64,000 bases of DNA, from assembly GCA_004143945.1 (NCBI GenBank), contig SEHB01000002.1:310001-374000 (forward strand), in the 5' to 3' direction. The notes beneath the pieces were generated by a model. It was given only the letters and a program-made list of their open reading frames with translations, made no database searches and had not been told where the DNA came from. Positions within the stretch are counted from its first letter, which is position 1. Each line of letters begins with the position of its first letter. The position numbers were made by a program, and so were the translations under genes. Positions 17,889 to 35,612 of this stretch are shown here, in pieces. Source of the DNA: Lysobacteraceae bacterium. GTDB taxonomy: Bacteria; Pseudomonadota; Gammaproteobacteria; Xanthomonadales; Rhodanobacteraceae.

Positions 17889-18294
<406 letters not shown>

Positions 18295-18769: not shown

Positions 18770-18911
18770 CGCCGACGCGCAGCGCCGCGGGATGCGGCAT
18801 CACCCGTCGGCACGGAGGCCGCGGCATGCGCACGTATTGTTTCCCGGGACGCCTGCTGCCCTGCGCAGTTCACCCCATGGTGGGGCAGCGGGCCTTTTCC
18901 GGCGCCATCGC

Positions 18912-20417
18912 GTGAGCCTCGCGGTCGTCTACACGCGCGCACCCGACGGCATCGACGCACCGCTCGTGACCTGCGAGGTGCATCTCTCCGGCGGCCTCCC
19001 CTCGACCTCGATCGTCGGACTGCCCGAGACCGCGGTGAAGGAGGCACGCGACCGCGTGCGCGCCGCGATCCTCAATGCGCACATGGACTACCCGCACGGC
19101 CGCGTCACGGTGAGCCTCGCGCCGGCCGACCTGCCCAAGGACGGCGGTCGCTTCGACTTGCCGATCGCACTCGGCGTGCTCGCCGCGAACCGGCTGCTGC
19201 CGCGCCCTGCGCTCGACGATTGCGAATTCATCGGCGAGCTCGCATTGTCGGGCGAACTGCGCGCGGTGCGCGGCGTGCTGCCCGCGGTGCTGCAGGCGAC
19301 GCGTGACGGCCGCCGCGTGATCGTGCCGCGCGGCAACGGAGCGGAAGCCGCGCTGGTCGAAGGGGCCGACGTGCGCGTGGCCGGCTCGCTGCTCGAGGTC
19401 TGCGCGCACCTGTGCGGGCGTGCGAACCTCGCGCCCGCGACCGCCGCGGACGCGGGACCCGCGGCGGCCGATGCGAACGCCGCCGATCTCGCGGACGTGC
19501 GCGGCCAGCCGCAAGCACGGCGCGCACTCGAGATCGCAGCCGCGGGCGCGCACAACCTCTTGCTGGTCGGACCGCCGGGTACCGGCAAGACGATGCTCGC
19601 GAGTCGCCTGCCCGGCATCCTGCCTCCGCTCGGCGAGGACGAGGCGCTCGAGCTCGCCGCGGTGCGCTCGGTCGCGGGCCACGACACGCCGGTCGGCGCG
19701 TGGAAAGTCCGTGCGTTCCGCGCGCCTCACCACACCGCTTCCGCGGTTGCACTGGTCGGCGGCGGCTCGATTCCGCGCCCGGGCGAGATCTCGCTCGCGC
19801 ACCACGGCGTGCTGTTCCTCGATGAGCTGCCCGAATTCGACCGCCACGTGCTCGAAGTGCTGCGCGAGCCGCTCGAGTCGGGCCGCATCGCGATTTCGCG
19901 CGCGGCGCGCCAGGCCGAGTTCCCGGCTGCATTCCAGCTCGTCGCCGCGATGAATCCCTGCCCCTGCGGCCATGCGGGCGACAGCTCCGGCCGCTGCCGC
20001 TGCACGCCAGAGGCGATCGCGCGCTACCGCGCGCGCCTGTCGGGTCCGCTGCTCGACCGCATCGACCTCAAGCTCGAAGTGCCGCGCGTGCCGCAGGCGG
20101 AACTGCGTGGCGGACCCGGCGGCGAGTCGAGCGCGATGGTGCGGGCACGCGTCGTCGCCGCGCGCGCGCTGCAGCTCGCACGCGCGGGCAAGCCGAACGC
20201 GCGGCTCGGCAATCGCGAAGTCGAGCGCGACTGCGCGCTCGACGCTGCGCAGCACGCGCTGCTCGACCGCGCGACCGACCGCCTCGGCCTCTCCGCGCGC
20301 GCCTACCACCGCGTGCTGCGCGTCGCGCGCACGATCGCCGACCTCGCGGGCAGCGCACGCCTCGACGCCGCGCACCTCGCCGAGGCGATCCAGTACCGGC
20401 GACTGGACGCGAACTGA
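18912..20417 (+). CDS. comM: YifB/ComM family Mg-chelatase-like AAA+ ATPase
   Basis: A hexameric helicase that widens branch migration during natural transformation; in non-competent hosts its role is unclear. The 501-aa product has an N-terminal Lon-S5-like fold (LVTCEVHLSGGLPSTSIVGLPETAVKE), Walker A LVGPPGTGKTMLASRLPG, Walker B GVLFLDELPEFDR and the C-terminal Cys-rich MNPCPCGHAG. A GTG start at 18912 is chosen because the family begins at MSLAVVYTRA; the open frame extends further upstream. A comF gene 8 kb away suggests competence potential. Confidence 0.9.
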   Translation: MSLAVVYTRAPDGIDAPLVTCEVHLSGGLPSTSIVGLPETAVKEARDRVRAAILNAHMDYPHGRVTVSLAPADLPKDGGRFDLPIALGVLAANRLLPRPALDDCEFIGELALSGELRAVRGVLPAVLQATRDGRRVIVPRGNGAEAALVEGADVRVAGSLLEVCAHLCGRANLAPATAADAGPAAADANAADLADVRGQPQARRALEIAAAGAHNLLLVGPPGTGKTMLASRLPGILPPLGEDEALELAAVRSVAGHDTPVGAWKVRAFRAPHHTASAVALVGGGSIPRPGEISLAHHGVLFLDELPEFDRHVLEVLREPLESGRIAISRAARQAEFPAAFQLVAAMNPCPCGHAGDSSGRCRCTPEAIARYRARLSGPLLDRIDLKLEVPRVPQAELRGGPGGESSAMVRARVVAARALQLARAGKPNARLGNREVERDCALDAAQHALLDRATDRLGLSARAYHRVLRVARTIADLAGSARLDAAHLAEAIQYRRLDAN

Positions 20418-20768
20418 CCGCTGCTTCGCGGGTTTGACAGCGTTCGTGCCCCGGCGGCCCGGCGAAGCCTGTTGCGTGATGCGCGCCGGGCGATGCAAGC
20501 GAAGCGCGAAGGCCAAGGACGAAGGATCGAAACACGGAGCGCGCAGGGCACGCGAAGGATGGAAGCGCGAACGGACGAACGACCCTTTTTCTCCGTGTGC
20601 TCCGATTTGAAAGCTCTCCCGCTTCCGCTCCGGGTGCCCGAACCTGGCGAGCGCACGGGCGTCCGCGCTGACGCCCCCGCCGCGACGCGGTCAGGCGTCG
20701 AGCGATGTCGCGTCCTGCATGCGTCACGCAAGCGCCTGCGGCTATGATCGAAGCCGGAGCGTCGACCG
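20418..20768. other. Intergenic region between comM and the K+/H+ antiporter
   Basis: No convincing gene is present. It holds an inverted repeat ACACGGAG (20532-20539) / CTCCGTGT (20591-20598) around a 51-base loop followed, on the plus strand, by no T-run. A TATGAT at 20743-20748 could be the -10 of the downstream antiporter gene. Confidence 0.5.
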
Positions 20769-22547
20769 ATGAACGCGATCCACAACGTCTACTGGCTGCT
20801 CGCCGGCGCCGCTGCCCTGGTGCTGGTCGGCATCGCCTCGAGCCTGATCGCGCGCCGGTTCGGCGCGCCGTTGCTGCTCGTGTTCCTCGTGATCGGCATG
20901 CTCGCCGGCGCCGACGGCCCGGGCGGGATCCGCTTCGACGATTACGCCGGCGCCTACCAGCTCGGTTCGCTCGCGCTCGCGATCATCCTGTTCGACGGCG
21001 GCCTGCGCACGCGCCTGTCGGTCGTGCGCGCGGTGCTCGCGCCGACGTTGCTGCTCGCCACCGTCGGCGTGCTGCTGACCGCGCTGCTGAGCGGCGCCGC
21101 CGCGCGCTGGCTGCTCGACCTCGAATGGCCGGTCGCGTTCCTGATCGGATCGGTGGTCGCCTCGACCGACGCGGCCGCGGTGCTGTTCCTGCTGCGCGCG
21201 GGCGGGCTGCGCTTGCGCGAGCGCGTCGGCGCGACGCTCGAGATCGAATCCAGCGCAAACGACCCGGCCGCGATCCTGCTGACGATGCTGCTGGTGGAAT
21301 ACATGCTCGCGCCGCAGGGCCTGTCCGCGCTTGCGCTCGCGCAGGAGCTCGTCGTGCAGTTCGGGATCGGCGGCGCTGGCGGCGTGCTCGGGGGATTTGC
21401 GATCGCGCGCGGCCTCAACCGCCTGCCACTCGGCCATGCGTTGTCGCCATTGTTCGCGCTCGCCGCGGCCGTCTGGCTGTTCGGCGTCGTCGGCTACCTC
21501 GGCGGCAGCGGCTTCCTCGCGGTGTACGTGGCGGGACTCGTGGTCGGCAATCGCGTCTCCTCGGGTCTCGGCAACCTGCTCGGTACGCTGGATGCGGCGA
21601 CCTGGCTGTGCCAGATCGCGATGTTCCTCGTGCTCGGGCTGCTCGCCTCGCCGAGCCGCCTGTTCGATTTCCTGCTGCCCGCGCTCGGCATCGCCGCATT
21701 CCTGATGCTGGTCGGGCGGCCGCTCGCCGTACTCGCCTGCCTCGCGCCGCTGCGCCGCTTCGGCAAGCGCGAGATCGCGTTCATCTCGTGGATCGGGCTG
21801 CGCGGCGCCGTCGGCATCTTCCTCGCGTCGATCCCGATGCTCGCGCAACTGCCGGATGCGGCGCTGGTGTTCAACGTCGCGTTCGTGGTCGTGCTCGCCT
21901 CGCTGCTCGTGCAGGGCTGGACACTCGGGCTCGCCGCGCGCGTACTCGACGTCGCGCTGCCGCACCGCGAACGCGAGGTGCGACGCGTCGAGGTGAACCT
22001 GCCGGGCGCGCTCACGCGCGAGCTCGTCGGCTATCCGGTGTCGGCCGGCGCGCGCGTGCTCAGCGGTGCGCCGCTGCCCGCGTGGGCACCACTCACGCTG
22101 GTCGTGCGCGACGGCGGCATCCTGCCGCGAGACGCCGACGCCGCGTTGCACGCGGGCGACTACGCCTACCTGCTGACGCCGCCCGATCGCCTGCACCGGC
22201 TCGACTGGCTGTTCCTGCCGCCCGAGGAAGCCGGCGTTGCCGAGCGCGAGATGTTCGGCGAGTTCAGTTTCGATGCCGGCGTGCGCCTCGCCGACATCGG
22301 CGGCTTCTACGGCTTGCCGGTGCGCCAGCGCGATGCGCCGCTCACGCTTGGCGAACACTTCGCGCGCCGCTACGAGCACACGATCGAGGTCGGCGACGAG
22401 GTTCGCCTCGGTCCGGTGACGCTGGTCGCGCGCGAACTCGGCGATGACGGCGTCGCGCGCGTCGGGCTCAAGATCGCGCGCGGCAGCGCGATCATGCGGC
22501 GCAGCTGGCTCGGTACGCGCATGCTGCGCCTGCTCGGGCGACACTGA
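20769..22547 (+). CDS. Potassium/proton antiporter, CPA1 family (NhaP2/CvrA-like)
   Basis: An inner-membrane cation/proton exchanger (592 aa). The N-terminal about 390 residues have around 12-13 helices with CPA1 hallmarks: LFDGGLRTRLSVVR, the ASTDAAAVLFLL helix, IESSANDPAAILLT with the ion-binding ND pair, and WIGLRGAVGIFLA. The C-terminal cytoplasmic part has an RCK_C/TrkA-C-like segment and a CvrA-type tail. Length and layout match E. coli CvrA (NhaP2), which exports K+ and guards cell volume and pH. Confidence 0.88.
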   Translation: MNAIHNVYWLLAGAAALVLVGIASSLIARRFGAPLLLVFLVIGMLAGADGPGGIRFDDYAGAYQLGSLALAIILFDGGLRTRLSVVRAVLAPTLLLATVGVLLTALLSGAAARWLLDLEWPVAFLIGSVVASTDAAAVLFLLRAGGLRLRERVGATLEIESSANDPAAILLTMLLVEYMLAPQGLSALALAQELVVQFGIGGAGGVLGGFAIARGLNRLPLGHALSPLFALAAAVWLFGVVGYLGGSGFLAVYVAGLVVGNRVSSGLGNLLGTLDAATWLCQIAMFLVLGLLASPSRLFDFLLPALGIAAFLMLVGRPLAVLACLAPLRRFGKREIAFISWIGLRGAVGIFLASIPMLAQLPDAALVFNVAFVVVLASLLVQGWTLGLAARVLDVALPHREREVRRVEVNLPGALTRELVGYPVSAGARVLSGAPLPAWAPLTLVVRDGGILPRDADAALHAGDYAYLLTPPDRLHRLDWLFLPPEEAGVAEREMFGEFSFDAGVRLADIGGFYGLPVRQRDAPLTLGEHFARRYEHTIEVGDEVRLGPVTLVARELGDDGVARVGLKIARGSAIMRRSWLGTRMLRLLGRH

Positions 22548-22582: not shown

Positions 22583-23761
22583 TCAGCGACGGCGGTCGCC
22601 ATCCCAGACCTGCGCGAGCGGATCGAACTCGACCACCTCGCGTCGCGCCGCGCGCACGCCGAATCCGCAGACCGCGACCGCGTCCTCGGCCAGCGGGTCG
22701 AGCCCGAGCGCCTGCGTGATGTCGAGTTCGTTGATCGCCGCGGTCACGTAGGCAGCCAGCCCGAGCTCGGTCGCCGCGAGGTAGAGGTCCTGGGACACGT
22801 GCCCTGCTTCGAGCAGCAGCACGCGCCACGCCTTGGCATGGTTGCGGTATTTCCAGAACAGCCGATCGAAGCGCGCGACGATCACGAGCTGCGCCTGCGC
22901 CGAAGCGAAGTAGTCCTGGCCCGCGACGAAGCGCGCCGCGAGCGCGAGCGCCGCGGGCGCGTCGACCGCCGTGAGCGGTTCGAGCGCATGCGCGCTCGCG
23001 TGGTAGTGATAGAGCCCGGGCACGAGTCCTTCGACCGCGCGCACGAGCACGTAGGCCTCGAGCGCGTGCAGGCCGCCGCCCGAGGGATGCGCCTTCTTCA
23101 GCACGTGCACGCCGGGCAAGGCTTCGCTCGCGGCGTGGCAGCCGAGCGCGCGTTGCAGCAGCGCATCGAAGTCGGCGCGCGCGAGCTGCGCGTCGGGATC
23201 GAAGTTCCGGCACGTCGTGCGCGCGCGCAACAGCGCATCGAGCGGCGACGGCGCGCTCTTTGCGAGTGCGAGCCGCGCGGCCGGCAGGACGCGTTCGGGC
23301 TGGTGCGTCGGCGGTGGACCGAACTCCTCGACGAGTTCGGCCAGCGTGCGGTCGCGGGGCACGCGCGCGTCGTCGGCGACGTCGGCCGCCGACCAGCGCG
23401 TGAACGCGTGCGCGACCGCCGACAGCGGCTTCCAGTGCAGCGCGCGCACCGCGTCGTCGCGCGCGCGCGTCGCCGCATGCGCCCCGTCGTCGCCGATCAG
23501 CAGGCCCTTCGCGAGCAGGCGTTCGAGCAGTTCGGGCGTGGCCGCGGCCGCGAGTTCCGCGGCGCGCAGCCACGGCGTCTCTCCGATGCGCCCGAGCGCA
23601 GCGAGCTCGTCTTCGTCGATCTCGACCTCGTGGCCGAGGTGCGGGGCGAGCGCGATCCAGCGACAACGTGCGCGCACCGCGCTGCCGCCCGCGAGCAGGC
23701 CCGCGACGTCGAGCTCCAGCGTTTCGCGCGCCTCGAACAGCACGATCGCGCAGCGACGCAT
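22583..23761 (-). CDS. SagB-like putative peptide-maturation dehydrogenase, copy 1
   Basis: A flavin-dependent nitroreductase-fold protein (392 aa) of the SagB/ThcOx group, which oxidises modified residues in ribosomal peptides. Residues 1 to about 190 form an N-terminal region with a winged-helix-like stretch near 70-90 that might hold the peptide leader. The nitroreductase core has LLRARTTCRNFDP (FMN phosphate site), HPSGGGLHALEAYV, GLYHYH and LYLAATELGLAAYVTAAINE. The start at 23761 is supported by alignment to copy 2 (both begin with RRCAIV). Divergent from the peptide gene at 23867. I recall the family as putative peptide maturation dehydrogenase (TIGR04511), not checked. Confidence 0.8.
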   Translation of the reverse strand: MRRCAIVLFEARETLELDVAGLLAGGSAVRARCRWIALAPHLGHEVEIDEDELAALGRIGETPWLRAAELAAAATPELLERLLAKGLLIGDDGAHAATRARDDAVRALHWKPLSAVAHAFTRWSAADVADDARVPRDRTLAELVEEFGPPPTHQPERVLPAARLALAKSAPSPLDALLRARTTCRNFDPDAQLARADFDALLQRALGCHAASEALPGVHVLKKAHPSGGGLHALEAYVLVRAVEGLVPGLYHYHASAHALEPLTAVDAPAALALAARFVAGQDYFASAQAQLVIVARFDRLFWKYRNHAKAWRVLLLEAGHVSQDLYLAATELGLAAYVTAAINELDITQALGLDPLAEDAVAVCGFGVRAARREVVEFDPLAQVWDGDRRR

Positions 23762-23866
23762 CCGCGGCAAGGTATTCAAGCGGCGACCCGGTCGTGGCTG
23801 GAGTTGGGCCCTCGCACGCCATATGCTTGGGCGATACCGGATCCACCACGCGAAGGGAGAGGGCAC

Positions 23867-24118
23867 ATGGGCAAGGGCATCGCGACATCCGAACAACTGG
23901 ACAAACTGCTGGACCGCCTCGGTTCCGACGATGCGTTCCGCGAGAAATTCCTCGGCGATCCGGCCTCTGCGCTGGCCGAACACGGCGTCGAGGTCGACCC
24001 CGCTTCGGTGCCGGCGGTGCGCAACCTGCCATCGAAGGATGCGCTGCGCTCGCAACGCGACGCGATCAAGTCCAAGGTCGACGGCAAGCTCGGGATGGGC
24101 TGGTTCCTACTGAAGTAA
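23867..24118 (+). CDS. NHLP-like RiPP precursor peptide, copy 1
   Basis: A putative ribosomally made, modified peptide of 83 aa. A clear AGGGAGA lies just upstream of the ATG. The leader part shows the nitrile-hydratase-like pattern (DDAFREKFLGDPASALAEHG) shared with copy 2: DDAFR, then (D/N)P, AL and GV at fixed spacing. The C-terminal part ends KSKVDGKLGMGWFLLK and has no Cys or Thr, so thiazole-type chemistry has no Cys to act on. It is divergent from dehydrogenase 1, and its last 12 bases overlap the end of cyclase 1 on the other strand. Confidence 0.75.
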   Translation: MGKGIATSEQLDKLLDRLGSDDAFREKFLGDPASALAEHGVEVDPASVPAVRNLPSKDALRSQRDAIKSKVDGKLGMGWFLLK

Positions 24119-26758
24119 TTCACCGCGCAGACGGCGTGCCCGCTGCAGCAGCGGCGGGTCGCCTTCAGCGGATTTCCACGCCGCCAGCAGCCGGTCCAGC
24201 GCGGCGACCGCCGCATCCTTGCGGCCCGCTCCGCGTTCGAGCTCGGCGATGTCGAGCAGCGAGGCGTCGCTCGCGAGCAGGTTCGGTACCTGGCCTGCGA
24301 ATTCGGCGAGGTATTCCGCACTGGCACGGCCACGATGGTCCGCGAGCCAGCGCGCGGTCGCGAGCGCTTCGTCCGACTTGCCCGCGGCGCGATAGGCGCG
24401 TGCCAGCGCGACACGCGTCTGGTAGTAGGCACGGTCGTCGAGCAGTGCTTCGAGGCAGCTGGCCGTCGCCGTCGCGTCGCGCGTGATGCGCGATTCGCAG
24501 TCGGCGATGCGCCAGGGTTGTTCGAGGCTGTGGTAGCCGCTGTTCGCCGACGTGCGGGCGAGCGCGCCGAGCGCGCGCTCGGCGACGTTGCCCGCGCCGT
24601 TGCGCAGCGCGAGCATCGCGGCGAGTGCAAGATGGGTATGGCTGCCGAGGTCATGGCTCGTGGCGGCCATTTCGAGCCGGGCAAGTTCGGCGTCGACGAA
24701 GTCCGCGAGTCGCGCGCGCGCGTCCGGTTCGCCGGCCGCGAGCGCGATCGCGACGCGCGCGAGGCGCGCGCGCTGGCGTGTCGACTCGAGGTTCGCGCGC
24801 GCGGCGATGTCGGTCGCGGCGTCGGCCGCGCGTGCGGCCGATCCGAGCTGTCCGCGCACGACGTGCAGCGCCGCGGCACGCAGCTGCTTCTCCGCCTCGA
24901 AATACGGGAATCCGTTGGTCGGCTCGTCCGCGAGCGCCGTGGTCACGGACTCGAACTCGCGCGTCGCGAGCGCGAGGTTGACCGGATCGAGGTAGACCTG
25001 CGGGGTGCCGACCTGGCGCGCGGTCACGTAGCTCTTGCGCGCCTCCGCGTAAGCCTCCTGCGCGACCTGGACGTCGCCGAGGAACAGCCAGGCGTAGCCG
25101 CGCCGTGGATGCTGGCTGCTGGTGACGAGCTCGAACTGGCGCCGGGCCTGCGCGAGGTCGTTGTCGTACTGCCACAGCACCAGCGCGAGGTTCTGCGCGC
25201 CGGCGAGGTCGTCGGGGTACAGCCGCGCGAACAGCGACCACTTCTCGCGCATCTGCGCGGGCGTCGTGAACAGCGCGGCGTAGCCCTCGGCGAGCAGGCG
25301 CTCGCGCACGCTGAGGCGCTTGGGGTCGCGCGTCGCGTGGTCGACCGCCTCGCGCGCCTTCGCCTTCTGGCCTGTCGCGTAATAGATGTTCGCGAGCCCG
25401 AGCCAGGCCTGCGCGAACGCCGGATCGAGGTGGATCGCCTGGTTGAACAACGTGGCCGCCTCGCCGCCCTTGCCCGCGGCGATCGCCTGCAGGCCGATCG
25501 AATAGGCCTTCAGCGCATCGAGGTCGCGCGTGGTCGCCTCGGCCAGCGGCGTGCTGGTTTCGCCGATGCTCGCCATCGATTCGCCGAGGCGCCCGCGCAT
25601 CTTGCCGAGCAGTTCGTCGATGCCGGGCAAGACCGATTCGCTGCCGGCGCCGTCGACCGAATCACTGTAGACCGAAGCCTGCGTGTGCGGATCGATGATC
25701 TCGGCGGTCAGGCGCACGCGTCCGCCGACTTCGGCGATCGTCGGCAGCACCAGCGCGCGCGCGCCTTCTCGCAGTGCGATTTCCGATCCGGTCGCGCGAT
25801 CGACCGGCGTCGAGGCGGGATCGCGTTCCATGCGTTGCAGCGCCGCGTTGACCTGCAGCTCCGGCACCACGTTGACGTAGCGGGACTGCTCGAGGCCGAT
25901 CCGGAACGCGGCCTGCAGCGATTCGTCGAAGACCTGCTGGCCGGTCAGGTTCTTGAGATCCCCGAGCACGACCCAGTCGCGCTGCGCGAACGCGATCGCG
26001 GGCGCGGGTCGCGTGAGGTACCACACCGGTACCGCGACCAGCAGCAGCAGTGCGAACAGCTCGATGCCGATCGCGACGGGCCGGCGCCAGACCGGCATCT
26101 CGCGATGCGCCTTTCCGGACCAGGTCGGCGCGCGCAGCGGCGCGAACCCTTCCTCGCCGACCTCGAACACGGGCACGAGATCGGGCACGCCCTTGAAGCG
26201 GTAGCGTCCGTGCGTGCGCCAGCGCACGCGCGTGAGTGCTTCGCCGAGTTCACCCTGCGCGCGATGCGCGATGTCGTAGGCGGTACCCGACAGCAGGATC
26301 TGTCGCGGCAGCGCGAGCCCCATCAGGCGCGCGGCGACCGGCTTCACGAGCCCTTCGACTTCCACCGGCTTGGCGCCGCGCTCGATGTCGCCGATCTCGT
26401 TGTCCCAGACCACGACGTCGCCGACATGCACGCCGATGCGTGCGGCGAGGTCGACCTGCTCCTGCGCGCCGAGCGCAGCGAGTTCGCGCTGGTACGCGAG
26501 CGCGAACGCGACCGCCTGGATCGGCCGCTCGAAGATCAGCAGGAAGCCGTCGGTCTTGTCGATCTCCTTGCCGCCGTGCGAACGGATCAGCGCGCGCGCG
26601 AGGCGATCATGCTTGCGGAACAAGTCGGCCGCGCGCTGGTCGCCGAGTCGCTCGACCAGCGCGGTCGAGTCGACGAGGTCGCAGAGCACCAGCGTGCGCA
26701 ACACCGAGGTCGGGCTGCCATCCGGTTTCGCGATCGCGTTTGACGTGTCGGCAGTCAC
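24107..26758 (-). CDS. Class III cyclase with membrane helix and TPR domain, copy 1
   Basis: An 883-aa protein. Residues about 20-200 are a class III nucleotide cyclase domain (RTLVLCDLVDST with metal Asp, DKTDGFLLIF with the second Asp, GVHVGDVV). One membrane helix follows (about 240-265, IELFALLLLVAVPVWYL), then a TolB-like domain (DWVVLGDLKNLTG) and TPRs to the end. In the usual VNxAAR motif the Asn is replaced by Pro (KPVAARL), though Arg is kept, so activity may be altered. GTG at 26758 aligns with the start of copy 2; a TTG at 26782 is an alternative. It lies 85 bp after dehydrogenase 2 on the same strand. I recall the family as peptide modification system cyclase (TIGR04510), not checked. 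Confidence 0.8.
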   Translation of the reverse strand: MTADTSNAIAKPDGSPTSVLRTLVLCDLVDSTALVERLGDQRAADLFRKHDRLARALIRSHGGKEIDKTDGFLLIFERPIQAVAFALAYQRELAALGAQEQVDLAARIGVHVGDVVVWDNEIGDIERGAKPVEVEGLVKPVAARLMGLALPRQILLSGTAYDIAHRAQGELGEALTRVRWRTHGRYRFKGVPDLVPVFEVGEEGFAPLRAPTWSGKAHREMPVWRRPVAIGIELFALLLLVAVPVWYLTRPAPAIAFAQRDWVVLGDLKNLTGQQVFDESLQAAFRIGLEQSRYVNVVPELQVNAALQRMERDPASTPVDRATGSEIALREGARALVLPTIAEVGGRVRLTAEIIDPHTQASVYSDSVDGAGSESVLPGIDELLGKMRGRLGESMASIGETSTPLAEATTRDLDALKAYSIGLQAIAAGKGGEAATLFNQAIHLDPAFAQAWLGLANIYYATGQKAKAREAVDHATRDPKRLSVRERLLAEGYAALFTTPAQMREKWSLFARLYPDDLAGAQNLALVLWQYDNDLAQARRQFELVTSSQHPRRGYAWLFLGDVQVAQEAYAEARKSYVTARQVGTPQVYLDPVNLALATREFESVTTALADEPTNGFPYFEAEKQLRAAALHVVRGQLGSAARAADAATDIAARANLESTRQRARLARVAIALAAGEPDARARLADFVDAELARLEMAATSHDLGSHTHLALAAMLALRNGAGNVAERALGALARTSANSGYHSLEQPWRIADCESRITRDATATASCLEALLDDRAYYQTRVALARAYRAAGKSDEALATARWLADHRGRASAEYLAEFAGQVPNLLASDASLLDIAELERGAGRKDAAVAALDRLLAAWKSAEGDPPLLQRARRLRGELLQ

Positions 26759-26843
26759 CGGCCGTACAACCCCCTGCCCCAACCCCGCGCCATTCTGCGC
26801 CGTATGCGCAGGGCTCGCCAGTGCTGCGGCGCAACGCGCATGC

Positions 26844-28004
26844 TCAGGCGGCCGGCCATGCGACGCCGAGCGGATCGAATTCCACGTCGCGGCGTTCGGT
26901 GCCGCGCAGGCCGAACCCGCAGACCGCGAGTGGTCCCTGCTCGAGCGGATCGAGCCCGAACGCGTGCTCGATGTCGACTTCGTTGATCGCGGCGGTGATG
27001 AATGCGGCGAGCCCGAGTTCGGTCGCGGCGAGGTACATCGCCTGCGACAGGTGGCCGACGTCGAGGATCAGGGCGCGGTAGGCCTTCGCATGGCTGCGGT
27101 ATTTCCAGAAGTTGCGGCGGAAGCGGCTGGTCGGGATCACCATCACCGGAACGTCGACGAACCACGCCTGCGCGGCGACGAAGCGGCGCGCGAGGGCGGC
27201 GGCATCGGCTGCGGCGAGGCGGCGGATCGGCTCGAGCGCGTGCGCGACCGGGTGGTAGTGGTAGAGACCCGGTTCGACGCCCTCCACGCGTTGCACCAGC
27301 AGGTAGGCCTCGGTCGCATGCAGTCCGCCGGCCGAGGGCACGCCCTTCTTCAGCAACTGCACGCCGGGCGCGTAGTCGTCGACCGTGCGTGCGCCATAGG
27401 CGCGATACAACACCGAGGAGAACGCCTCGAGCCCGAGCACGTGCGCGCGATCGAAATTGCGGCAGGTCACGCGACGATCGAGCAGCGCATCGAGCGACGC
27501 GGGAACGGCCGCGGGCAGGGACTGCCTCTGCTGAGCCGGCGCGCGTTCGTGCACCGCGGGCGGCGCGGCGCCGAGCAGGTCGAGCAGGCTGCCCGTCGCG
27601 AGCTCGGTGAATTCCCGCTGCAGCGCTTCGGTGTCGACGCCGCTCCAGCGCGAGGCGTAATGCATCGTCGCCGCGGTCGCGTGCCAGTGCGTGTCGCGCA
27701 GCGCGCGGTCGCGCGCGTCGGCTTGGCTGTCTTCCTGCACAAGCAGCCCGTGCTCGAGCAGGACTTCGAGTTCGCCGCGTGCATGCTCGCGTTCGAGCTC
27801 GGCCAGCTCGCACCAGCGCGAGGGCGACAGCCGCAGCAGGAGCGCGGCCGCGTCATCGGGCAACACGACCTCGCGCGCGAGGTGCGGCGCGATCGCCACC
27901 TGCTCGAGCAGGTGGCGCAAGCCGTTGCCGCCGCCGGCGACCAGCGCGAGATCGAGCGCGAGTCGCTCGCGCGGCTCGACCACGACGATGGCACAGCGTC
28001 GCAC
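26844..28004 (-). CDS. SagB-like putative peptide-maturation dehydrogenase, copy 2
   Basis: Homologue of copy 1 (386 aa); the two align over their whole length, at roughly 45 % identity by eye. The core shows LLDRRVTCRNFD, GVPSAGGLHATEAYLLV, GLYHYHPVAHALEP and MYLAATELGLAAFITAAINEVD. The N-terminal region again begins RRCAIVVVEPRERL. A GTG at 28004 matches the copy 1 start. The peptide 2 gene diverges from it across about 210 bp, and cyclase 1 follows downstream. Confidence 0.8.
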   Translation of the reverse strand: MRRCAIVVVEPRERLALDLALVAGGGNGLRHLLEQVAIAPHLAREVVLPDDAAALLLRLSPSRWCELAELEREHARGELEVLLEHGLLVQEDSQADARDRALRDTHWHATAATMHYASRWSGVDTEALQREFTELATGSLLDLLGAAPPAVHERAPAQQRQSLPAAVPASLDALLDRRVTCRNFDRAHVLGLEAFSSVLYRAYGARTVDDYAPGVQLLKKGVPSAGGLHATEAYLLVQRVEGVEPGLYHYHPVAHALEPIRRLAAADAAALARRFVAAQAWFVDVPVMVIPTSRFRRNFWKYRSHAKAYRALILDVGHLSQAMYLAATELGLAAFITAAINEVDIEHAFGLDPLEQGPLAVCGFGLRGTERRDVEFDPLGVAWPAA

Positions 28005-28215
28005 TCGCAAGGGCAGGCTCCGGAAGCGGCGTGCGCGAGCGTAGCACGCTGTTTGCGCGGCCCCGGCCGCGGGCGCCCGCTGCGTCCGCTTGCGCGCGTG
28101 ATGCTGTAGTCTTGCGCGGCACGGCGCGGAGTCAGGGGCAAGGCGCCCGCCGGTTGCCGATCGGACCCGGGCGCACGCCGTGCATCCCTGCTTCGAACCG
28201 CCACTCGGGGGAGTC

Positions 28216-28533
28216 ATGAGCAACGATCTGGTGCTGCAGAAGGAAACCGCGCTGGTGCTGCTGCGCAAGCTTGCGGACGACGACGCATTCCGTTCCGCCT
28301 ACGAGCGCAATCCGGTCGAGGCATTGCGCACGGTCGGCGTGCCGGACGCGGTCCTGCAGGGCCTGCCGGCCGGGCATGCCTCACCGCTGAAGCTCGCGCC
28401 GAAGGAGACCTTCCGCGACGCGCTCTCCCAGCTCATCGACGACGCCGCGCAGGTGTGCATCTGCCAGACGCCGCCGCAGGTGAGCCTCTCGTTCGGCGGG
28501 CGCCCCGCTAAGGCTTCGTTCGAAGCGCGCTGA
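28216..28533 (+). CDS. Putative modified peptide (RiPP precursor), copy 2
   Basis: A putative precursor peptide of 105 aa with GGGGGAG before the ATG. The leader segment (DDDAFRSAYERNPVEALRTVGV) matches the pattern in copy 1. The core region differs: it holds a CxC motif (DDAAQVCICQTPPQVSLSFGG) and a tail of about 15 residues. This resembles the mod_pep family with a CYC motif that I remember from Xanthomonadaceae (TIGR04509), from memory only. Its last 26 bases overlap the 3' end of cyclase 2 on the other strand, repeating the arrangement of copy 1. Confidence 0.75.
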   Translation: MSNDLVLQKETALVLLRKLADDDAFRSAYERNPVEALRTVGVPDAVLQGLPAGHASPLKLAPKETFRDALSQLIDDAAQVCICQTPPQVSLSFGGRPAKASFEAR

Positions 28534-31150
28534 TCCGCGCCGCGAATGTCGGATCGGCGTTCGCGCCAGGCCATGCCGTTTCGAATGCGCGCAAGGCCGC
28601 GTCCGGGTCCTGCCCGAGCGCATGCTGCAGCTCGGCGGTGCGCAGCAGCGCGAGCGTCGATTGCGCGACGTTGTAGGGGATCATGACCGAGGTGCTGAAC
28701 TCGGCATAGGCGCGGCCGCGATGCGTCGCCAGCCACTGCGCGCGCGCGAGCGCAGCCTGCGCGTTGCCGGCCGCCGCGTGCGCCTCCATCAGCGCGACAT
28801 GCGCGAGCCAGGGTTCGCTGCCGTCGAGCGTCGGTTCGATCATCCGCACGGCCTCGCCCGGACTGCCGTCCACGCGCGCGGCTTCGGCCCGCACGACGGT
28901 CGCGAGCCGGCCGAGCACGGGGTATTCCGCGGCGGGGAACAGCGTCGCGACGCGCCCGGCTTCGTCGCGCGCGAGCGCCGCGTCACCCGCGCGCGCGGCG
29001 AGCCAGGCCGCGAACAGCAGCTGCGCCGCGACCGCAGGCCGGTCGGCCTCGGTCACGCTGCCGAGCTCGGTCGCGAGCGACGTCACCCGCGCGCGCAGGT
29101 CCGGCGTCGGTTCGCCGGGTGCTGCGACCAGCGTTCGCAACGACAGCACCATGCCGGCGAACTCGCGGGCACGCGGCGTCCCCGCGACACTCACGGTGCG
29201 CAGCGCACGATCGAACATGCGCCGCGCACTCGCCCAGTCGCCGCGATCGAACGCGATCGCGGCTTCGGCGAAGTCGCGCTCCGCATCCGCGCCCGGTGCA
29301 CCCGTCGACTGCACCTGCGCGAGCGTCGCGTCGACCCGCGCGAAGTCGCGCCGAGCGGCGTCGACGAGCAGGTAGTCGAGGTGCCAGGCGAAACCCGCCG
29401 AACGCGCCGCGGCGAAATGGCGTTCGGCTTCGGCGTAGCGCTCGTTGCCCAGGTGCAGCATGCCGAGCAGAAGTTCGGTGGCCGCCACGCGCGCATTCGG
29501 CGGCGCCGCCGCATGCTCGGCGATGCGCACGATCTCGTCGTCGTAGCGGTTCGCGTACAGCCAGCCGAAGTAGGCATGCAGGGCCGCACCGGTCGGGAAG
29601 TCCGGGTACAGCGTCGACAGCAGTTTCCACTTTTCCAGGGCGGCGCGCGGCGTGCGGCCGAGGCTCGCTTCCCAGGCATCGACGTAGAGCTGGTCGCGCG
29701 AGGTCAGGCGATCGCGCTGGCGCGCCGCGGTTCGCAGTTCGGCCAGCGCGCCTGCGCGGTTGTCGATCGCGAGCAGCGTGCGCGCGAGCCCGATGCGCGC
29801 GAGCGCGAAGTCGCCGTCGATCTCGAGCGCCTGCCGGTGCAACGCGAGCGCATCGCGGTACTTGCGCACGCCATAGGCATCCTCGGCCAGCGTGTAGGCG
29901 CGCAAGGCGTCGAGATTGCCGGTGGTGACCTTCTCCAGCGGCAGCGATTCCTTCGACACCGTCGCGAGCGCCTCGCCGAGCCGCAGGCGCAGCTTCTGGT
30001 TGACCTGGTCCAGCGACGGCAGCACCGAAGACTCGCCGACGCCGTCCGCGGATTCGGAGTAGACGGTCGTCTGTGTGTGCGGATCGACGACTTCCGCGGT
30101 GATGCGCACGCGGCCACCGATCTCGGCGACGGTCGGCAGGATCAGCGCGCGCGCGCCGTCGCGGATCGCGATTTCGGAACCGATCGCGCGGTCGATCCCG
30201 GTCGAGTCCGGGTCGCGCTGCATGCGCTTGACCGTCTCGCGCGTCTTCAGCGCGGACAGCACGTTGACATGACGCGATTGCTCGAGGCCGATGCGGAACG
30301 CGGTCGCGAGCGAATCGTCGAACGCGGTTTCGCCGGTCAGGTTCGCGAGATCACCGACGACCACCCAGTCGCGTTGCGCGAACGCGATCGCGGGTTCCGG
30401 CTTGAGCAGGTACCAGGCCGGCAACGCCAGCAGCATGAAGAGCGCCACCGCCTCGACCGCGAGCGTGGCCGGACGGCGCCAGAACGGCACTTCGCGATGC
30501 GCCTTGCCCGACCACGGCGGCGCCTTCAGCGGCGCGATGCCTTCCTCGCCGACCTCGAACACCGCGATCGGATCCGGGACGCCCTTGAATCGGTAGCGCC
30601 CGTGCGTGCGCCAGCGCACCTGCTCGAGCTGCGCGCCGAGTTCGCCCTGCGCGCGGTGCGCGAGCGCGTGCGCGACGCCGGACAGCAGGATCTGGTTGGG
30701 CAGCGCGAGCTGCATCAGGCGCGACGTGATCGGCTTGACCAGGCCTTCGACTTCGACCGGCTTGGCGCCCTTGGAGATGTCCTCGGGGCTGTTGTCCCAC
30801 GACACGATGTCGCCGACGTGGATGCCGACTCGCACCGCGAGCGCAGAGCCCTCCTGCAGGTTGAGCTCGCGCAGCGCGCGCAGGTACGCGAGTGCGAAGC
30901 CGACCGCCTGCACCGGGCGATCGAACATCAGCAGGAAACCGTCGGTCTTGTCGATCTCGCGCCCACCGTGCACCGGCAGCAGCGCGCGCGCGACGCGATC
31001 GTGGCGGCGCAGCAGTTCGGCGCCACGACGGTCGCCGAGACGCTGCACCAGCGCGGTCGAGTCGACGAGGTCGCACAGCACGAGCGTGCGCAGCAAGGCC
31101 GAGCTGGCGCTCGCTGCGCTGGTCGGAATCGATGGTGCGAGTGCATTCAT
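28508..31150 (-). CDS. Class III cyclase with membrane helix and TPR domain, copy 2
   Basis: An 880-aa paralogue of copy 1, very similar for the first about 430 residues (cyclase domain, membrane helix, TolB-like domain) and much less so in the TPR half. Cyclase signatures: RTLVLCDLVDST, EIDKTDGFLLMF, GIHVGDIV. The transition-state Asn is again a Pro (VKPITSRL) while the Arg is kept. The membrane helix is near residues 240-262. It probably makes or senses a cyclic nucleotide at the membrane and uses the TPRs for protein contact. It follows the cNMP-binding GGDEF gene by 78 bp on the same strand. Confidence 0.8.
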   Translation of the reverse strand: MNALAPSIPTSAASASSALLRTLVLCDLVDSTALVQRLGDRRGAELLRRHDRVARALLPVHGGREIDKTDGFLLMFDRPVQAVGFALAYLRALRELNLQEGSALAVRVGIHVGDIVSWDNSPEDISKGAKPVEVEGLVKPITSRLMQLALPNQILLSGVAHALAHRAQGELGAQLEQVRWRTHGRYRFKGVPDPIAVFEVGEEGIAPLKAPPWSGKAHREVPFWRRPATLAVEAVALFMLLALPAWYLLKPEPAIAFAQRDWVVVGDLANLTGETAFDDSLATAFRIGLEQSRHVNVLSALKTRETVKRMQRDPDSTGIDRAIGSEIAIRDGARALILPTVAEIGGRVRITAEVVDPHTQTTVYSESADGVGESSVLPSLDQVNQKLRLRLGEALATVSKESLPLEKVTTGNLDALRAYTLAEDAYGVRKYRDALALHRQALEIDGDFALARIGLARTLLAIDNRAGALAELRTAARQRDRLTSRDQLYVDAWEASLGRTPRAALEKWKLLSTLYPDFPTGAALHAYFGWLYANRYDDEIVRIAEHAAAPPNARVAATELLLGMLHLGNERYAEAERHFAAARSAGFAWHLDYLLVDAARRDFARVDATLAQVQSTGAPGADAERDFAEAAIAFDRGDWASARRMFDRALRTVSVAGTPRAREFAGMVLSLRTLVAAPGEPTPDLRARVTSLATELGSVTEADRPAVAAQLLFAAWLAARAGDAALARDEAGRVATLFPAAEYPVLGRLATVVRAEAARVDGSPGEAVRMIEPTLDGSEPWLAHVALMEAHAAAGNAQAALARAQWLATHRGRAYAEFSTSVMIPYNVAQSTLALLRTAELQHALGQDPDAALRAFETAWPGANADPTFAARISALRTKP

Positions 31151-31228: not shown

Positions 31229-32299
31229 TCAGGCCACGCTGTGCAACGAACCGTGCGGCATCGCCTGCGCCGCCGCGAGGTGGTAGCCGTCGCCGCCGCG
31301 TCCCTTGCTTTCGTACAACGCAGCGTCGGCGTCGCTGTACCAGACCGCCCAGTCGGCGGTCTCCGAGCACAGGCTGCCGCCGATGCTGACCGTCACCGAC
31401 AATCCTTCATTGCAGCCGCTGAAACGCAACGCGCGCACCGCGCTGATGACCTGGGTGGCGCGCGCGCGCATCTCCTCCTCGCCCGTGACCTGCATCAGCA
31501 GCGCGAATTCGTCGCCGCCGAGGCGGCACGGCACGTCGGAAGAGGACGCCGCATTCTGCACTTCCTCGGCGATCGCGCGCAGGACCTGGTCGCCGACGAG
31601 GTGGCCGCAACGGTCGTTGATCTGCTTGAAACGGTCGAGGTCGACCAGCAGCAGCGCGAGTTCGGTGCCGGGCAGGCGGTGTTCGGACAAGCGCTCGAGG
31701 AACATGTAGAGCCCGCGCCTGTTGCACAGTCCCGACAGTTCGTCGGTCTGCACGAGGCGTTGCGCGGTCGACAGCTGCGTGCGGGTCTGGCGCAACGAGT
31801 CGAGCGTGACCATCAGGTCCTCGTTGCGTCGCTTGAGGCTCTGGATCAGCTGCTGCTCGCTCGCGACGAGGTAGGAGAACGAGCGGCGCATGAACTGCGC
31901 GAGCAGGCGCGGTTCGCTCGCGATCAATCCCTCGAACACTTCCTGGTCGATGATGCGCAGCCGCGCCGGCGTGAACGCGACCGCGTTCGCGACGCGCGTG
32001 TGGCTGCCGATGAACAGCACGAGCTCGCCGAAGAATTCGCGCGGCCCGATGATCTTGTCGGGCAGGCCGTCGCCGAACTCGAGCTGCACTTCGCCCGATT
32101 CGACGATGAACATCGCGCGGCCGAGTTCGCCGCGGCGGAAGATGATGTCGCCGGGTTCGACCGATCGGCTCGCGCCCGCGCGTGCGAACAGCGCGGCTTC
32201 GTCGTCGGAGAGATGCCGAGGCAGCAGCGCCGGTGCCGGCGGAACCGCTGTCAGCGCATGGGCGAGCTCGCTCGCCGAGCCTGGCTTGCCGCTGGACAC
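31229..32299 (-). CDS. Diguanylate cyclase with N-terminal cyclic-nucleotide-binding domain
   Basis: A predicted c-di-GMP synthase (356 aa) controlled by a cyclic nucleotide. Residues about 20-140 are a CRP-like cNMP-binding fold with the phosphate-binding cassette (PREFFGELVLFIGSHTRVANAVA). Then comes a helical linker and the GGDEF domain with intact active-site motif RLGGDEFALL, preceded by DLDRFKQINDRCGHLVGD. GTG at 32299 is chosen because AGGGGAGG sits 5 bases upstream; the open frame continues to 32437 without support. Lying directly before cyclase 2, it is the natural candidate effector for that cyclase. Confidence 0.85.
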   Translation of the reverse strand: MSSGKPGSASELAHALTAVPPAPALLPRHLSDDEAALFARAGASRSVEPGDIIFRRGELGRAMFIVESGEVQLEFGDGLPDKIIGPREFFGELVLFIGSHTRVANAVAFTPARLRIIDQEVFEGLIASEPRLLAQFMRRSFSYLVASEQQLIQSLKRRNEDLMVTLDSLRQTRTQLSTAQRLVQTDELSGLCNRRGLYMFLERLSEHRLPGTELALLLVDLDRFKQINDRCGHLVGDQVLRAIAEEVQNAASSSDVPCRLGGDEFALLMQVTGEEEMRARATQVISAVRALRFSGCNEGLSVTVSIGGSLCSETADWAVWYSDADAALYESKGRGGDGYHLAAAQAMPHGSLHSVA

Positions 32300-32547
32300 T
32301 CGAACCTCCCCTCTGGGGCCCGACCGGATGGCCGATGGTACCCCAGTTCGCGCGCGGCGGGCAGCGCACGGCCCGCCGCGCTGCGCGAATTCCCCTTGTG
32401 GGCATGTAGGAAAATTGCCACTCGAGGCACGCGGCACCAGGCGATTGCGTCCGGTCGCGGCGGTGCCATGCCGCGGTGCGGATCGCGGGTCCCGTCCGGC
32501 CTCCCGCGTCTACCCGACCTTCGCGTTGTGCCGTCCCGCAGCCCGCT

Positions 32548-33843
32548 TCAGGCCGCGCGCGTCGCCGTGAACTGCTCCTCTTCGGTCGAGCCCTTGAGCG
32601 CGACGGTCGAGGACTGGCCGCGCTGGATCGCCTGGGTCACCGCGTCGAAGTAGCCGGTGCCGACCTCGCGCTGGTGCTTGACCGCGGTGAAGCCGAGGTC
32701 GGCGGCCGCGAACTCCGCCTCCTGCAGTTCGACGAACGCGCTCATCTGGTTGCGCGCGTAGCCGTGTGCGAGCTTGAACATCGAGTAGTTCAGTGCGTGG
32801 AACCCGGCCAGCGTGATGAACTGGAAGCGGTAGCCGTAGGCCGCGAGTTCGCGCTGGAAGCGCGCGATCGTCGCGTCGTCGAGGTTCTTCTTCCAGTTGA
32901 AGCTCGGGCTGCAGTTGTAGGCGAGCAGCTTGTCCGGGAACTTCGCATGGATCGCCTCGGCGAACGCGCGTGCGAACGCGAGGTCCGGCTTGCCGGTTTC
33001 GCACCAGACGAGGTCCGCGTGCGGCGCGTACGCGAGTCCGCGGCTGATCGCCTGGTCCAGACCGTTGCGCGTGCGGTAGAAGCCCTCGACCGTGCGCTCG
33101 CCGGTCGTGAACGGCTGGTCGTTCGGATCGACGTCCGAGGTCAGCAGGTCGGCCGCTTCCGCGTCGGTGCGCGCGACCACGAGCGTCGGCACGCCGCAGA
33201 CGTCGGCCGCGAGGCGCGCGGCGTCGAGCTTCTCGATCGCCTCGCGCGTCGGCACCAGCACCTTGCCGCCCATGTGGCCGCACTTCTTGACGCTCGCGAG
33301 CTGGTCCTCGAAATGGACCGCGGCCGCGCCGGCTTCGATCATCGCCTTCATCAGCTCGAACGCGTTGAGCACGCCGCCGAATCCGGCTTCGGCATCGGCG
33401 ACGATCGGCTGCAGGTAGTCGATGCGGTCGTCGCCTTCGGCATGCGCGATCTGATCCGCGCGCAGCAGGGCGTTGTTGATGCGCTTGACCACCTGCGGCA
33501 CCGAGTTGGCCGGATACAGCGACTGGTCCGGGTACATCTCGCCCGCGATGTTGGCGTCCGCCGCGACCTGCCAGCCCGAGAGGTAGATCGCCTTGAGCCC
33601 GGCCTTGACCTGCTGCATCGCCTGGTTGCCGGTCAGCGCACCGAGTGCGTTGACGTAGGGCTCCCGCTGCAGCGCGGCCCAGAGCTTGTCGGCGCCGAGG
33701 CGCGCGAGCGAATGCTCGACGTGCACCGACCCGCGCAGGCGCACGACGTCGGCCGCGGTGTAGCCACGCGTGACGCCGGCCCAGCGCGGGTTGTCGGCCC
33801 AGTCGCGCTGGAGTTGGTCGGCGGTGGGAAGGGGCGTCGTCAT
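32548..33843 (-). CDS. aceA: Isocitrate lyase
   Basis: Cleaves isocitrate to glyoxylate and succinate in the glyoxylate shunt. The 431-aa product has the catalytic KKCGHMGGK motif (about residue 185-195), the substrate block NWKKNLDD and the early [23 protein letters not shown]. It lies downstream of aceB on the same strand, 127 bp apart, in the acetate/fatty-acid growth operon aceBA. No aceK follows. Confidence 0.95.
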
Positions 33844-33970: not shown

Positions 33971-35563
33971 CTACCCCTCGAGCAGTGGATACGCGACGAG
34001 CGTCAGGAAGTCGGCGAGCTTCGGCGCGTGCGTGAGTTGGTCGAGCAACACAACCGCGGTGTCGAGCTGCGAACGGCCCGGCATCGACGTCGCGGCGAGC
34101 GCGTTGCGCGCGTCGGCGAGCGCGGACTCGAATGCGGCGGAATCGATCGCGCTGCCGTCGTCGAAGCGGGCCGCATGGCGCACCCATTGCCACAGCTGCG
34201 CGCGCGAGATTTCCGCGGTGGCGGCGTCTTCCATCAGGTGGTGGATCGGGACGCAGCCCTGGCCGTCGAGCCAGGCCGCGAGGTAGCGCAGGCAGATCAC
34301 GATGTTCGCGGCGAAGCCTTCGCGCGTGATCGTGCCGGCGCTCGGCGCGAGCAGCCGATCGCGATCGGCGACGACATCCGCGCGCGCGACCTGCAGCTGG
34401 TTCGGCGTCGGCATGTGCTCGTCGAACGCCGCCCGCGCGACCGCGACCAGCGCCGGATGCGCGACCCAGGTGCCGTCGTGGCCCGCGCGCACCTCGCGCA
34501 GCTTGTCCGCGCGCACCTTGGCGAGCGCGGCCTCGTTCGCGGCTGTGTCGTGGTTGATCGGGATCTGCGCGGCCATGCCGCCCATCGCGAACGCGCCGCG
34601 GCGATGGCAGGTTCGCACCAGCAACTGCGAATAGGCCTCGAGGAACGGTACGCCCATCGTTACCTGCGCGCGCTCGGGCAGCACGCGATCCGGATGCGCG
34701 CGCAGCGTCTTGATGTAGGAAAAGATGTAGTCCCAGCGACCGCAGTTGAGGCCGGTGATGCGCGTGCGCAGCGCATGCAGGATCTCGTCCATCTCGAACA
34801 CCGCCGGCAGCGTCTCGATCAGGACGGTCGCCTTGATCGCGCCGAGCGGCAGCCCGAGTTCGTGCTCGGCGTGCGCCATCACCTCGTCCCACAGCGCGGC
34901 CTCGCGGTGGCTTTCGAGCTTGGGCAGGTAGAAGTAGGGCCCGCGATCGCGTTCGTGCAGCGCGCGCGCGTTGTGGAACGCGAACAGGCCGAAGTCGAAC
35001 AGCGCGCCCGCGATCGGTGCACGGTCGACCTCGAGGTGGCGCTCGGGCAGGTGCCAGCCGCGCGGACGCACCATCAGAACGGCGGGGTCTGGCTGCACCG
35101 CGTACCGACGGCCCTGCTCCGACACGTACTCGATCGTGCCCTGCACCGCGTCGCGCAGGTTGAGCTGGCCGTCGAGCAGGTTCGCGAACGTCGGCGCGGT
35201 CGAGTCCTCGAAGTCGGCCATGAACACCTGCGCGCCTGAATTGAGCGCGTTGATGATCATCTTGCGGTCGACCGGACCCGTGATCTCGACGCGCCGGTGC
35301 TGCAACGCGGCCGGGATCGGCGCGACCTGCCAGTCCGATTCGCGCAGCGCGCGCGTCTCGGGAAGGAAGTCGGGCAGCGCGCCCGTGTCGAAGGCGGCCT
35401 GGCGTTCGGCGCGGCGCGCGAGCAGCGCGCGCCGCGCGGGATCGAAGCGGCGGTGCAGGCCGGCGAGGAACGCGAGCGGCTCGGGGGCGAGCACGCCCGC
35501 ATGGCCAGGCGCGAGCTCGGCAAGCACCTGTGCAAGCGCGGGGGTCGGCTGCGGAACGCTCAT
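33971..35563 (-). CDS. aceB: Malate synthase A
   Basis: Condenses glyoxylate with acetyl-CoA. The 530-aa product shows the family elements [39 protein letters not shown] and the C-terminal [18 protein letters not shown]. The ATG at 35563 is chosen (GGAG upstream); the frame is open about 16 codons further. Divergent from a LysR gene across 154 bp, which carries a dyad operator. Confidence 0.93.
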
Positions 35564-35612
35564 CGGCGACTCCGGTGTCACGGGCGACCAGACTAGGAGC
35601 GATCCTTCCACT

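Follow-up and report, generated by a model that had tools for sequence, protein, structure and literature searches.

Two tandem cassettes in a Lysobacteraceae genome as candidate modules for modified-peptide signalling through cGMP and c-di-GMP

The 64,000-nt stretch of DNA considered here (the window), from the 3.67 Mb genome of a Lysobacteraceae bacterium, carries two tandem cassettes, each encoding a SagB/ThcOx-type dehydrogenase, a small precursor peptide and a receptor-type nucleotide cyclase, and one gene for a protein that combines a cyclic nucleotide monophosphate (cNMP) binding domain with a GGDEF domain. In related genomes the peptide, the enzyme and the sensing half of the receptor are swapped together, a pattern suggestive of a private code of peptide signalling. 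I consider it probable, at roughly 60%, that each cassette makes a modified peptide that is read by its own receptor and feeds cyclic GMP (cGMP) and then cyclic di-GMP (c-di-GMP) signalling.

An earlier note, made from the sequence of this DNA, described six open reading frames, and all of them are present where it placed them: dehydrogenase 1 (22583..23761, minus strand, 392 aa; TIGR04511, 473 bits), the NHLP-related precursor peptide 1 (23867..24118, plus strand, 83 aa, tail ...GMGWFLLK; TIGR04509, 61 bits, and NF038399, 45 bits), cyc1, a class III cyclase with a TPR sensor half (24107..26758, minus strand, 883 aa; TIGR04510, 802 bits), dehydrogenase 2 (26844..28004, minus strand, 386 aa; TIGR04511, 468 bits, and TIGR03605, 121 bits), the NHLP-related precursor peptide 2 (28216..28533, plus strand, 105 aa, with a tail unlike that of peptide 1; TIGR04509, 48.5 bits) and cyc2, built like cyc1 (28508..31150, minus strand, 880 aa; TIGR04510, 850 bits). 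The three NCBIfam families named in the note apply, as all six proteins exceed the curated cut-offs (240 bits for TIGR04511, 34 for TIGR04509 and 400 for TIGR04510). The repeated order that the note saw is also real, but it left out that the peptides lie on the plus strand and the other four genes on the minus strand: read along the minus strand, each cassette runs from cyclase to dehydrogenase, and the intervening peptide gene converges on the cyclase gene, overlapping it by 12 bases in the first cassette and 26 in the second, and diverges from the dehydrogenase gene. The cNMP-GGDEF gene (31229..32437, minus strand; PF00027, 59.5 bits, and PF00990, 121 bits) is present in one copy, upstream of both cyclases.

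In the proposed mechanism each cassette would be a self-contained peptide-signal and receptor module. The SagB-type flavoenzyme would use its N-terminal part to bind the leader of the precursor and, with no YcaO partner, would oxidise the short tail at the C-terminus; after a presumed export step the mature peptide may be the ligand that the adjoining membrane guanylate cyclase recognises with its sensor half, and binding of the peptide would alter cGMP synthesis in the cytoplasmic half, with a sign that is itself conjectural. The cGMP would act on the single upstream cNMP-GGDEF protein. Precursor, enzyme and sensor half would have to match and would for that reason be inherited or exchanged as one allelic block, with the catalytic half and the GGDEF protein held in common; the window genome would have two such modules on one output.

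Allelic variation of peptide, dehydrogenase and sensor half

Among 53 loci with one dehydrogenase, one cyclase and one cNMP-GGDEF gene, 344 pairs have cNMP-GGDEF proteins of at least 0.90 identity. Classed by identity thresholds, these pairs, which compare related species, comprise 231 that differ in peptide, TPR part and dehydrogenase, 111 that agree in all three and 2 intermediate ones; no pair is mismatched. The catalytic half of the cyclase has a median identity of 0.95 across the same 344 pairs. Over the 231 different-type pairs, the median change point in the cyclase is residue 235, with an identity of 0.89 before it and 0.31 after it, and in 21 disjoint pairs it falls at residues 203-470, in every case past the catalytic domain. 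Most pairs, though not all, show a sharp step.

Projected onto cyc2, the catalytic domain (residues 19-202; 30545..31096, minus strand) has a mean identity of 0.92 between types. Divergence between types often starts at the helix of residues 227-249 (30404..30472, minus strand), a helix in the structure model that I read by eye as a membrane span. It continues through the sensor half (residues 258-880; 28511..30379, minus strand), modelled as an alpha/beta domain followed by a TPR array and presumed to be periplasmic: residues 258-400 show 0.51 identity between types vs 0.90 within, and residues 401-880 show 0.27 vs 0.82. A change point that often begins in the membrane helix would also suit a peptide and dehydrogenase that stay inside the cell and act in the cytoplasm as a redox sensor or as a peptide cofactor, touching the membrane region of the receptor from within. 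The position beside aceA and aceB would fit such a metabolic cue, and neither an exporter nor a signal sequence is known, although no search was aimed at them. However, the most type-specific part of the receptor is the distal TPR array, which would be periplasmic if the helix spans the membrane, and I regard this intracellular role as unlikely.

The dehydrogenase is counted in the block as a whole, because its protein identity is 0.51 between types vs 0.88 within and a large step inside it is rare. A catalytic half common to the types, as in the cyclase, was considered for the dehydrogenase and rejected, as such a step occurs in only 18 of 231 pairs.

Judged by their tails, the precursors of 28 Xanthomonas loci form six types (type A in 15, C in 6, B in 4, and three singletons). 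For 26 of these loci (L225 and L226, with a truncated or split dehydrogenase, were omitted, and the set lacks G321, where it is in pieces), mean amino-acid identities within and between types are 0.96 and 0.96 for isocitrate lyase, 0.95 and 0.92 for the cNMP-GGDEF protein, and 0.95 and 0.92 for the catalytic half of the cyclase. The TPR part falls from 0.81 to 0.28, the peptide leader from 0.78 to 0.32, and the two parts of the dehydrogenase from 0.79 to 0.36 and from 0.85 to 0.50; the types are defined from the peptide tails, and tail identities in this comparison are circular. Two genomes of different type, G243 (type C) and G175 (type D), have flanking DNA that is 97.3% identical over 7.5 kb on one side and 98.6% over 8.3 kb on the other, and from within the cyclase gene to 250 bases beyond the dehydrogenase no alignment was found among the matches listed. 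Seven of nine clusters of closely similar GGDEF proteins contain at least two types, and three types span more than one cluster.

Partial Mantel correlations were calculated for 51 single-cassette loci with aceA, aceB and the cNMP-GGDEF gene, controlling for aceA/aceB distance and omitting four near-identical loci and the window. The cNMP-GGDEF protein correlates with the catalytic half at 0.71 and with the sensor half at 0.35, and the dehydrogenase the other way round, at 0.70 with the sensor half and 0.35 with the catalytic half. For the peptide tail the correlation is high with the dehydrogenase (0.64-0.71), next with the sensor half (0.51), and lower with the catalytic half (0.18); the corresponding values for the peptide leader are 0.50-0.53, 0.49 and 0.13, with 0.19 for the cNMP-GGDEF protein.

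It is conceivable that peptide and dehydrogenase form a locus for ribosomally synthesised and post-translationally modified peptides (RiPPs) with a product of its own, which merely sits between conserved genes and is swapped by recombination in the flanks rather than by molecular matching. Conserved stretches on both sides would indeed aid such replacement. But the variable block starts inside the cyclase gene (at residue 203 or later in all 21 disjoint pairs) and not at a gene border, the 344 pairs contain no mismatch, and a second receptor type is linked to the same pair of genes elsewhere, which makes this explanation improbable.

The cyclase and its cGMP-binding partner

By sequence and predicted structure, the "cyclase" of TIGR04510 is a nucleotide cyclase of class III that carries a TPR sensor half and belongs to the XC_0250 family. 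The earlier note had seen it as a part of the peptide modification, a role that is not supported: the match to class III nucleotide cyclases rules out a peptide cyclase, and the gene upstream is of XC_0249 type. The closest solved folds to the cyclase model are Rv1900c and Ma1120. The class III fold with both metal-binding aspartates is present in the window cyclase, and D27, D70 and R144 are invariant; synthesis of cGMP from GTP, established for XC_0250 only, is predicted for the window enzymes. What I take to be the first metal-site aspartate of Ma1120 aligns with cyc2 D27.

Six positions that have been mutated in XC_0250 map, with an offset of one, to cyc2 residues 40, 70, 72, 149, 156 and 160; five are identical in cyc2, and at the sixth cyc2 has Phe, where 47 of 83 relatives have Leu. 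Many Xanthomonas relatives have a cyclase frame of 887 codons, vs 886 residues in XC_0250. The published metal ligands of XC_0250 are D41 and D71 (PMC3770947); with the offset of one these correspond to cyc2 D40 and D70, and judged by the alignment the published assignment may possibly be shifted.

The best match in the PDB of the cNMP-GGDEF protein is the cNMP domain 5h5o. I take this structure to be XC_0249, because its five contact residues F51, E68, H76, N123 and E124 align with F73, E90, H98, N145 and E146 of that protein at one constant offset of 22. The window protein keeps the equivalents of F73, E90, H98 and E146, has Ser in place of N145, and these four kept cGMP-contact residues are invariant in 29 of 29 sequences. 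In Xanthomonas campestris, XC_0250 makes cGMP, cGMP raises c-di-GMP synthesis by XC_0249, and mutants without the cyclase have less cGMP, form less biofilm and are less virulent (PMC3770947). The text consulted names no input signal and terms the TPR part uncharacterised, and the portion of the main text available mentions neither a peptide nor an operon nor XC_0251. X. campestris itself was not recognised among the genomes searched (best identity 97%), and orthology to XC_0250 and XC_0249 is probable from family, synteny and residue fits.

The earlier note called the system uncharacterised, which fits only in part. The cyclase and its GGDEF partner have a studied relative, but among the open-licence matches listed from the literature none joins the peptide or the dehydrogenase with the cGMP pathway. 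The accessions TIGR04509, TIGR04510 and TIGR04511 gave no literature match, and the phrase "peptide maturation dehydrogenase" was met in one paper, on another system. The note had overlooked the link to cGMP and c-di-GMP as well as the exchange of sensor half, peptide and dehydrogenase as alleles; both the swappable signal-receptor block and the connection of the cassette to cGMP signalling are new as far as the literature was searched.

Discrete concordant types among related genomes are also typical of toxin-immunity pairs, and RiPPs are often antimicrobial, so the peptide could instead be an antagonist, a narrow bacteriocin or kin-discrimination agent that the matching sensor half detects or neutralises, with strain competition keeping the types apart. 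The partner, however, is a nucleotide cyclase that keeps its metal-binding residues and is linked to an output protein, unlike a typical immunity protein, and no peptide exporter is known, although none was searched for. The phenotype of the X. campestris cyclase mutant (PMC3770947) argues against an antagonist as well, and I hold this role to be quite unlikely.

The dehydrogenase, the precursor and the distribution of the cassette

Family, sequence and predicted fold all assign the window dehydrogenases to the SagB/ThcOx type, as the earlier note had proposed. In dehydrogenase 1, residues 8-85 form three strands followed by three helices, with a short helix between strands 1 and 2, and the nitroreductase domain covers residues 173-385 approximately. 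The structure model, with a predicted local distance difference test (pLDDT) score of 93, resembles ThcOx and McbC in a fold search, most rows of which covered residues 163-392 only. K304 and Y305 are invariant in 40 of 40 dehydrogenases; among 62, Y305 is invariant and K304 is kept in at least 90%. This Lys-Tyr pair presumably adjoins the flavin, and a WKY stretch is common to the window enzymes and CyaGox. The dehydrogenase is a putative peptide oxidase, predicted to bind flavin mononucleotide (FMN). The order of strands and helices in the N-terminus of the model is compatible with a RiPP recognition element, which I infer to be located there; no Pfam family for this element occurs among the matches listed for the 62 members.

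Both window peptides belong to TIGR04509 by score. For the classical NHLP leader, TIGR03793 (cut-off 50.9 bits), peptide 1 scores 21.8 bits and peptide 2 is not among the matches listed at E 0.01. Classical NHLP and Nif11 precursors typically have a conserved GG-type cleavage site; a GG anywhere past residue 30 is found in only 21 of 108 precursors of the cassette. Within the last 22 residues, Cys is present in 35 of 108 precursors and Ser or Thr in 104 of 108.

With Ser or Thr so frequent in the tails, and with McbC and ThcOx as relatives that oxidise the azolines made by a YcaO cyclodehydratase, ordinary biosynthesis of a thiazole/oxazole-modified microcin (TOMM) comes to mind. A search for YcaO at E 1e-10, however, gave nothing for the window genome and nothing for 74 of the 81 cassette genomes, the other 7 having a match somewhere in the genome, and Cys is in the tails of a minority of precursors. 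Since YcaO was not found in the window genome and in most cassette genomes, the usual azoline substrate and ordinary azole chemistry are unlikely, TOMM biosynthesis is rejected as the general function, and for the window cassettes it is very improbable indeed.

The three families co-occur to an extent that makes the cassette more than a chance arrangement. In a survey of 299 genomes of the window's order at the curated cut-offs, TIGR04511, TIGR04509 and TIGR04510 are each found in 81 genomes, all three together in 79, and dehydrogenase and cyclase together in 80. XC_0249-type proteins (at least 178 bits; next best 112) are present in 85, of which 80 also have a cyclase over the cut-off. Four genomes (G106, G111, G233, G256) have the GGDEF protein without a cassette and one (G091) the reverse; in G259 the cyclase is cut at a contig end, in G275 the peptide is below the cut-off, and G292 has a peptide match without an intact dehydrogenase. 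In a wider survey of the class, 4 of 364 genomes pass the dehydrogenase cut-off, all of them in the window's order.

The 35 Xanthomonas genomes were compared for the XC_0249 domain, the cyclase and the dehydrogenase. The same 29 carry the XC_0249 domain and the cyclase, and all 29 have the dehydrogenase, over the cut-off in 28 (in pieces in G305 and G321) and truncated in G325. The other six are without cNMP domain, cyclase and dehydrogenase, except for dehydrogenase remnants in G292, where neither a cyclase nor a close XC_0249 relative was found. By appearance the dehydrogenase genes of G292, G321, G305 and G325 are broken, split or cut off.

Synteny was compared over 80 relative loci and the window, 81 in total, some of which stop at contig borders. 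Peptide genes are conserved beside the dehydrogenases in relatives, as expected in the note; neither of the two outcomes that the note had named as fatal to its idea was observed. The gene order of the window holds in 70 of 81 loci. The cNMP-GGDEF gene is found in 72, always on the strand of the cyclase and at most 600 bases upstream of it in 71 of the 72. On the minus strand beyond it in the window lie the conserved neighbours aceA (isocitrate lyase, 32548..33843; PF00463) and aceB (malate synthase, 33971..35611; PF01274), which are present in 66 of 81 loci; a LysR gene is present in 63. On the other flank (18792-22547) are genes for a ChlI/ComM-type protein, a relative of which is present in 36 of 80 relative loci, and a sodium/proton exchanger.

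Several loci are built differently. In L106-L112 the dehydrogenase is flipped to the peptide strand and is of a separate class, accompanied by short-tailed precursors; these dehydrogenases and two from L094 form one branch of the dehydrogenase tree (support 100/100). L064, L090, L091 and L094 deviate otherwise. L094 (G237, 3907-18462) is expanded, with five dehydrogenase matches (one a fragment), ten precursors and one full cyclase, and its cNMP-GGDEF gene lies about 180 kb away. L064 (G091, 6723-8581) has five near-identical tandem precursor genes upstream of the dehydrogenase and the cyclase after it, and no cNMP-GGDEF gene was found in the G091 genome. In L062 (10435-12360) and L063 (10666-12591) the dehydrogenase is followed by a second TIGR04510-like gene of 641 aa with the sensor half only, possibly a decoy or the leftover of a swap. 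L160 (6404-8197), in a record named Streptomyces antimicrobicus, has a dehydrogenase and a type-A-like precursor and no cyclase in the examined stretch, and may reflect either transfer or contamination.

In 10 of 11 loci from Duganella, Rugamonas and related genera, which I take to be Oxalobacteraceae, dehydrogenase and peptide adjoin a hybrid histidine kinase, and the examined stretches contain no TIGR04510 cyclase. Pfam recognises a propeller sensor on this kinase in L159 and L128, the two that were examined, and the remaining kinases align over nearly the whole protein; in the eleventh locus, L177, no peptide was detected and the kinase frame is without propeller. As the dehydrogenase-peptide pair is found beside both the cyclase and the hybrid histidine kinase, it is portable between two kinds of membrane receptor.

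Several points weigh against a modified peptide that is read by the cassette's own receptor. No peptide exporter, protease or signal sequence is known, and although no dedicated search was made, the annotated neighbours include none; with its single predicted helix the receptor would have its sensor half in the periplasm, a compartment that the peptide would then have to reach. The isolated cyclase domain of XC_0250 was active in vitro and restored biofilm (PMC3770947), and therefore the sensor is not required for activity. One relative, G278, has the GGDEF-cyclase pair without dehydrogenase or peptide. The 344 pairs share 53 loci and are not independent; the catalytic half is not equally constant in them, with a lowest identity of 0.68, and identity before the change point is at least 0.92 in 12 of the 21 disjoint pairs and 0.60-0.86 in nine. 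The peptide tail also correlates with the cNMP-GGDEF protein (0.30, partial Mantel), and as the physical order is GGDEF, catalytic half, sensor half, peptide, dehydrogenase, linkage and recombination could yield part of the correlations.

Relationship of the two copies and comparison with known systems

The two window copies are old, as had been suspected from their divergence, with paralogue identities of 31-49%: 47% for the dehydrogenases, 31% for the peptides, which indeed differ between the copies as the note had suggested, and 49% for the cyclases (73% over the catalytic half, 35% over the TPR part). Trees were built without one duplicate locus, dehydrogenase rows of up to 330 aa and cyclases below 780 aa. 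The dehydrogenases are each sister to one copy in G279, a genome of the same genus (support 100/100 and 100/97), as are the cyclases (100 and 93), and in neither tree are the window copies each other's sisters. This grouping rules out a recent local duplication; the second cassette may come from an old duplication or from acquisition. Peptide 1 is 81% identical to its counterparts in both records named D. fugitiva (L114 and L115). Between these two records, copy 1 shows identities of 0.85 for the cyclase, 0.93 for the peptide and 0.90 for the dehydrogenase, and copy 2 shows 0.54, 0.65 and 0.72; judged by these protein identities copy 1 is well preserved in D. fugitiva and copy 2 is more variable.

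The cassette proteins belong to known families, although the names of the NCBIfam trio are only putative. Joining the Xanthomonas pathway with this trio offers a testable answer for both. If it is true, bacterial communication would gain a guanylate cyclase gated by a peptide and a RiPP signal that is both portable and type-specific, a highly polymorphic block inside a conserved metabolic neighbourhood would be explained, and there would be a YcaO-free SagB chemistry to find. Further, and with somewhat less than even confidence, I tentatively propose a new class of cell-cell signalling, in which a flavoenzyme-modified ribosomal pheromone acts on a receptor guanylate cyclase and exchangeable pherotypes control cGMP and c-di-GMP, the module is portable to the Duganella-type histidine-kinase receptor, and the window genome has two pherotypes on one output.

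Of the known systems, XC_0250/XC_0249 shares the class III cyclase with a TPR part that adjoins a cNMP-GGDEF protein; unlike it, the window has two cyclases per GGDEF protein and Ser at N145. All six window proteins are members of the NCBIfam trio, but the family names imply a cyclase in peptide modification, whereas the evidence here points to a receptor and output enzyme. With SagB, McbC and ThcOx the cassette has in common the nitroreductase fold, the WKY stretch of CyaGox and a precursor peptide nearby, and it differs in that the genomes mostly lack YcaO and only 35 of 108 tails contain Cys. Pycsar also pairs a class III cyclase with a cNMP-binding protein; there the cyclase is soluble and the effector kills, whereas here the cyclase is of receptor type and the output is a GGDEF protein. 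Pycsar is an anti-phage system, and its PycC and effector models in PADLOC gave weak matches only (PycC at 14-17 bits for cyc1 and none at E 0.01 for cyc2, and at most 23 bits for the GGDEF protein).

The pattern resembles the pherotypes of agr and ComQXPA, in which the processing enzyme varies together with the peptide and the sensor half and the output half is kept. The same block variation with a kept output half is seen here, and an agr/ComQXPA-like label would rest on this variation, with secretion and action on the own receptor as predictions. In contrast to these systems, a flavin dehydrogenase takes the place of AgrB or ComQ, the precursor is NHLP-related, a guanylate cyclase replaces the histidine kinase, and the hosts are Gram-negative.

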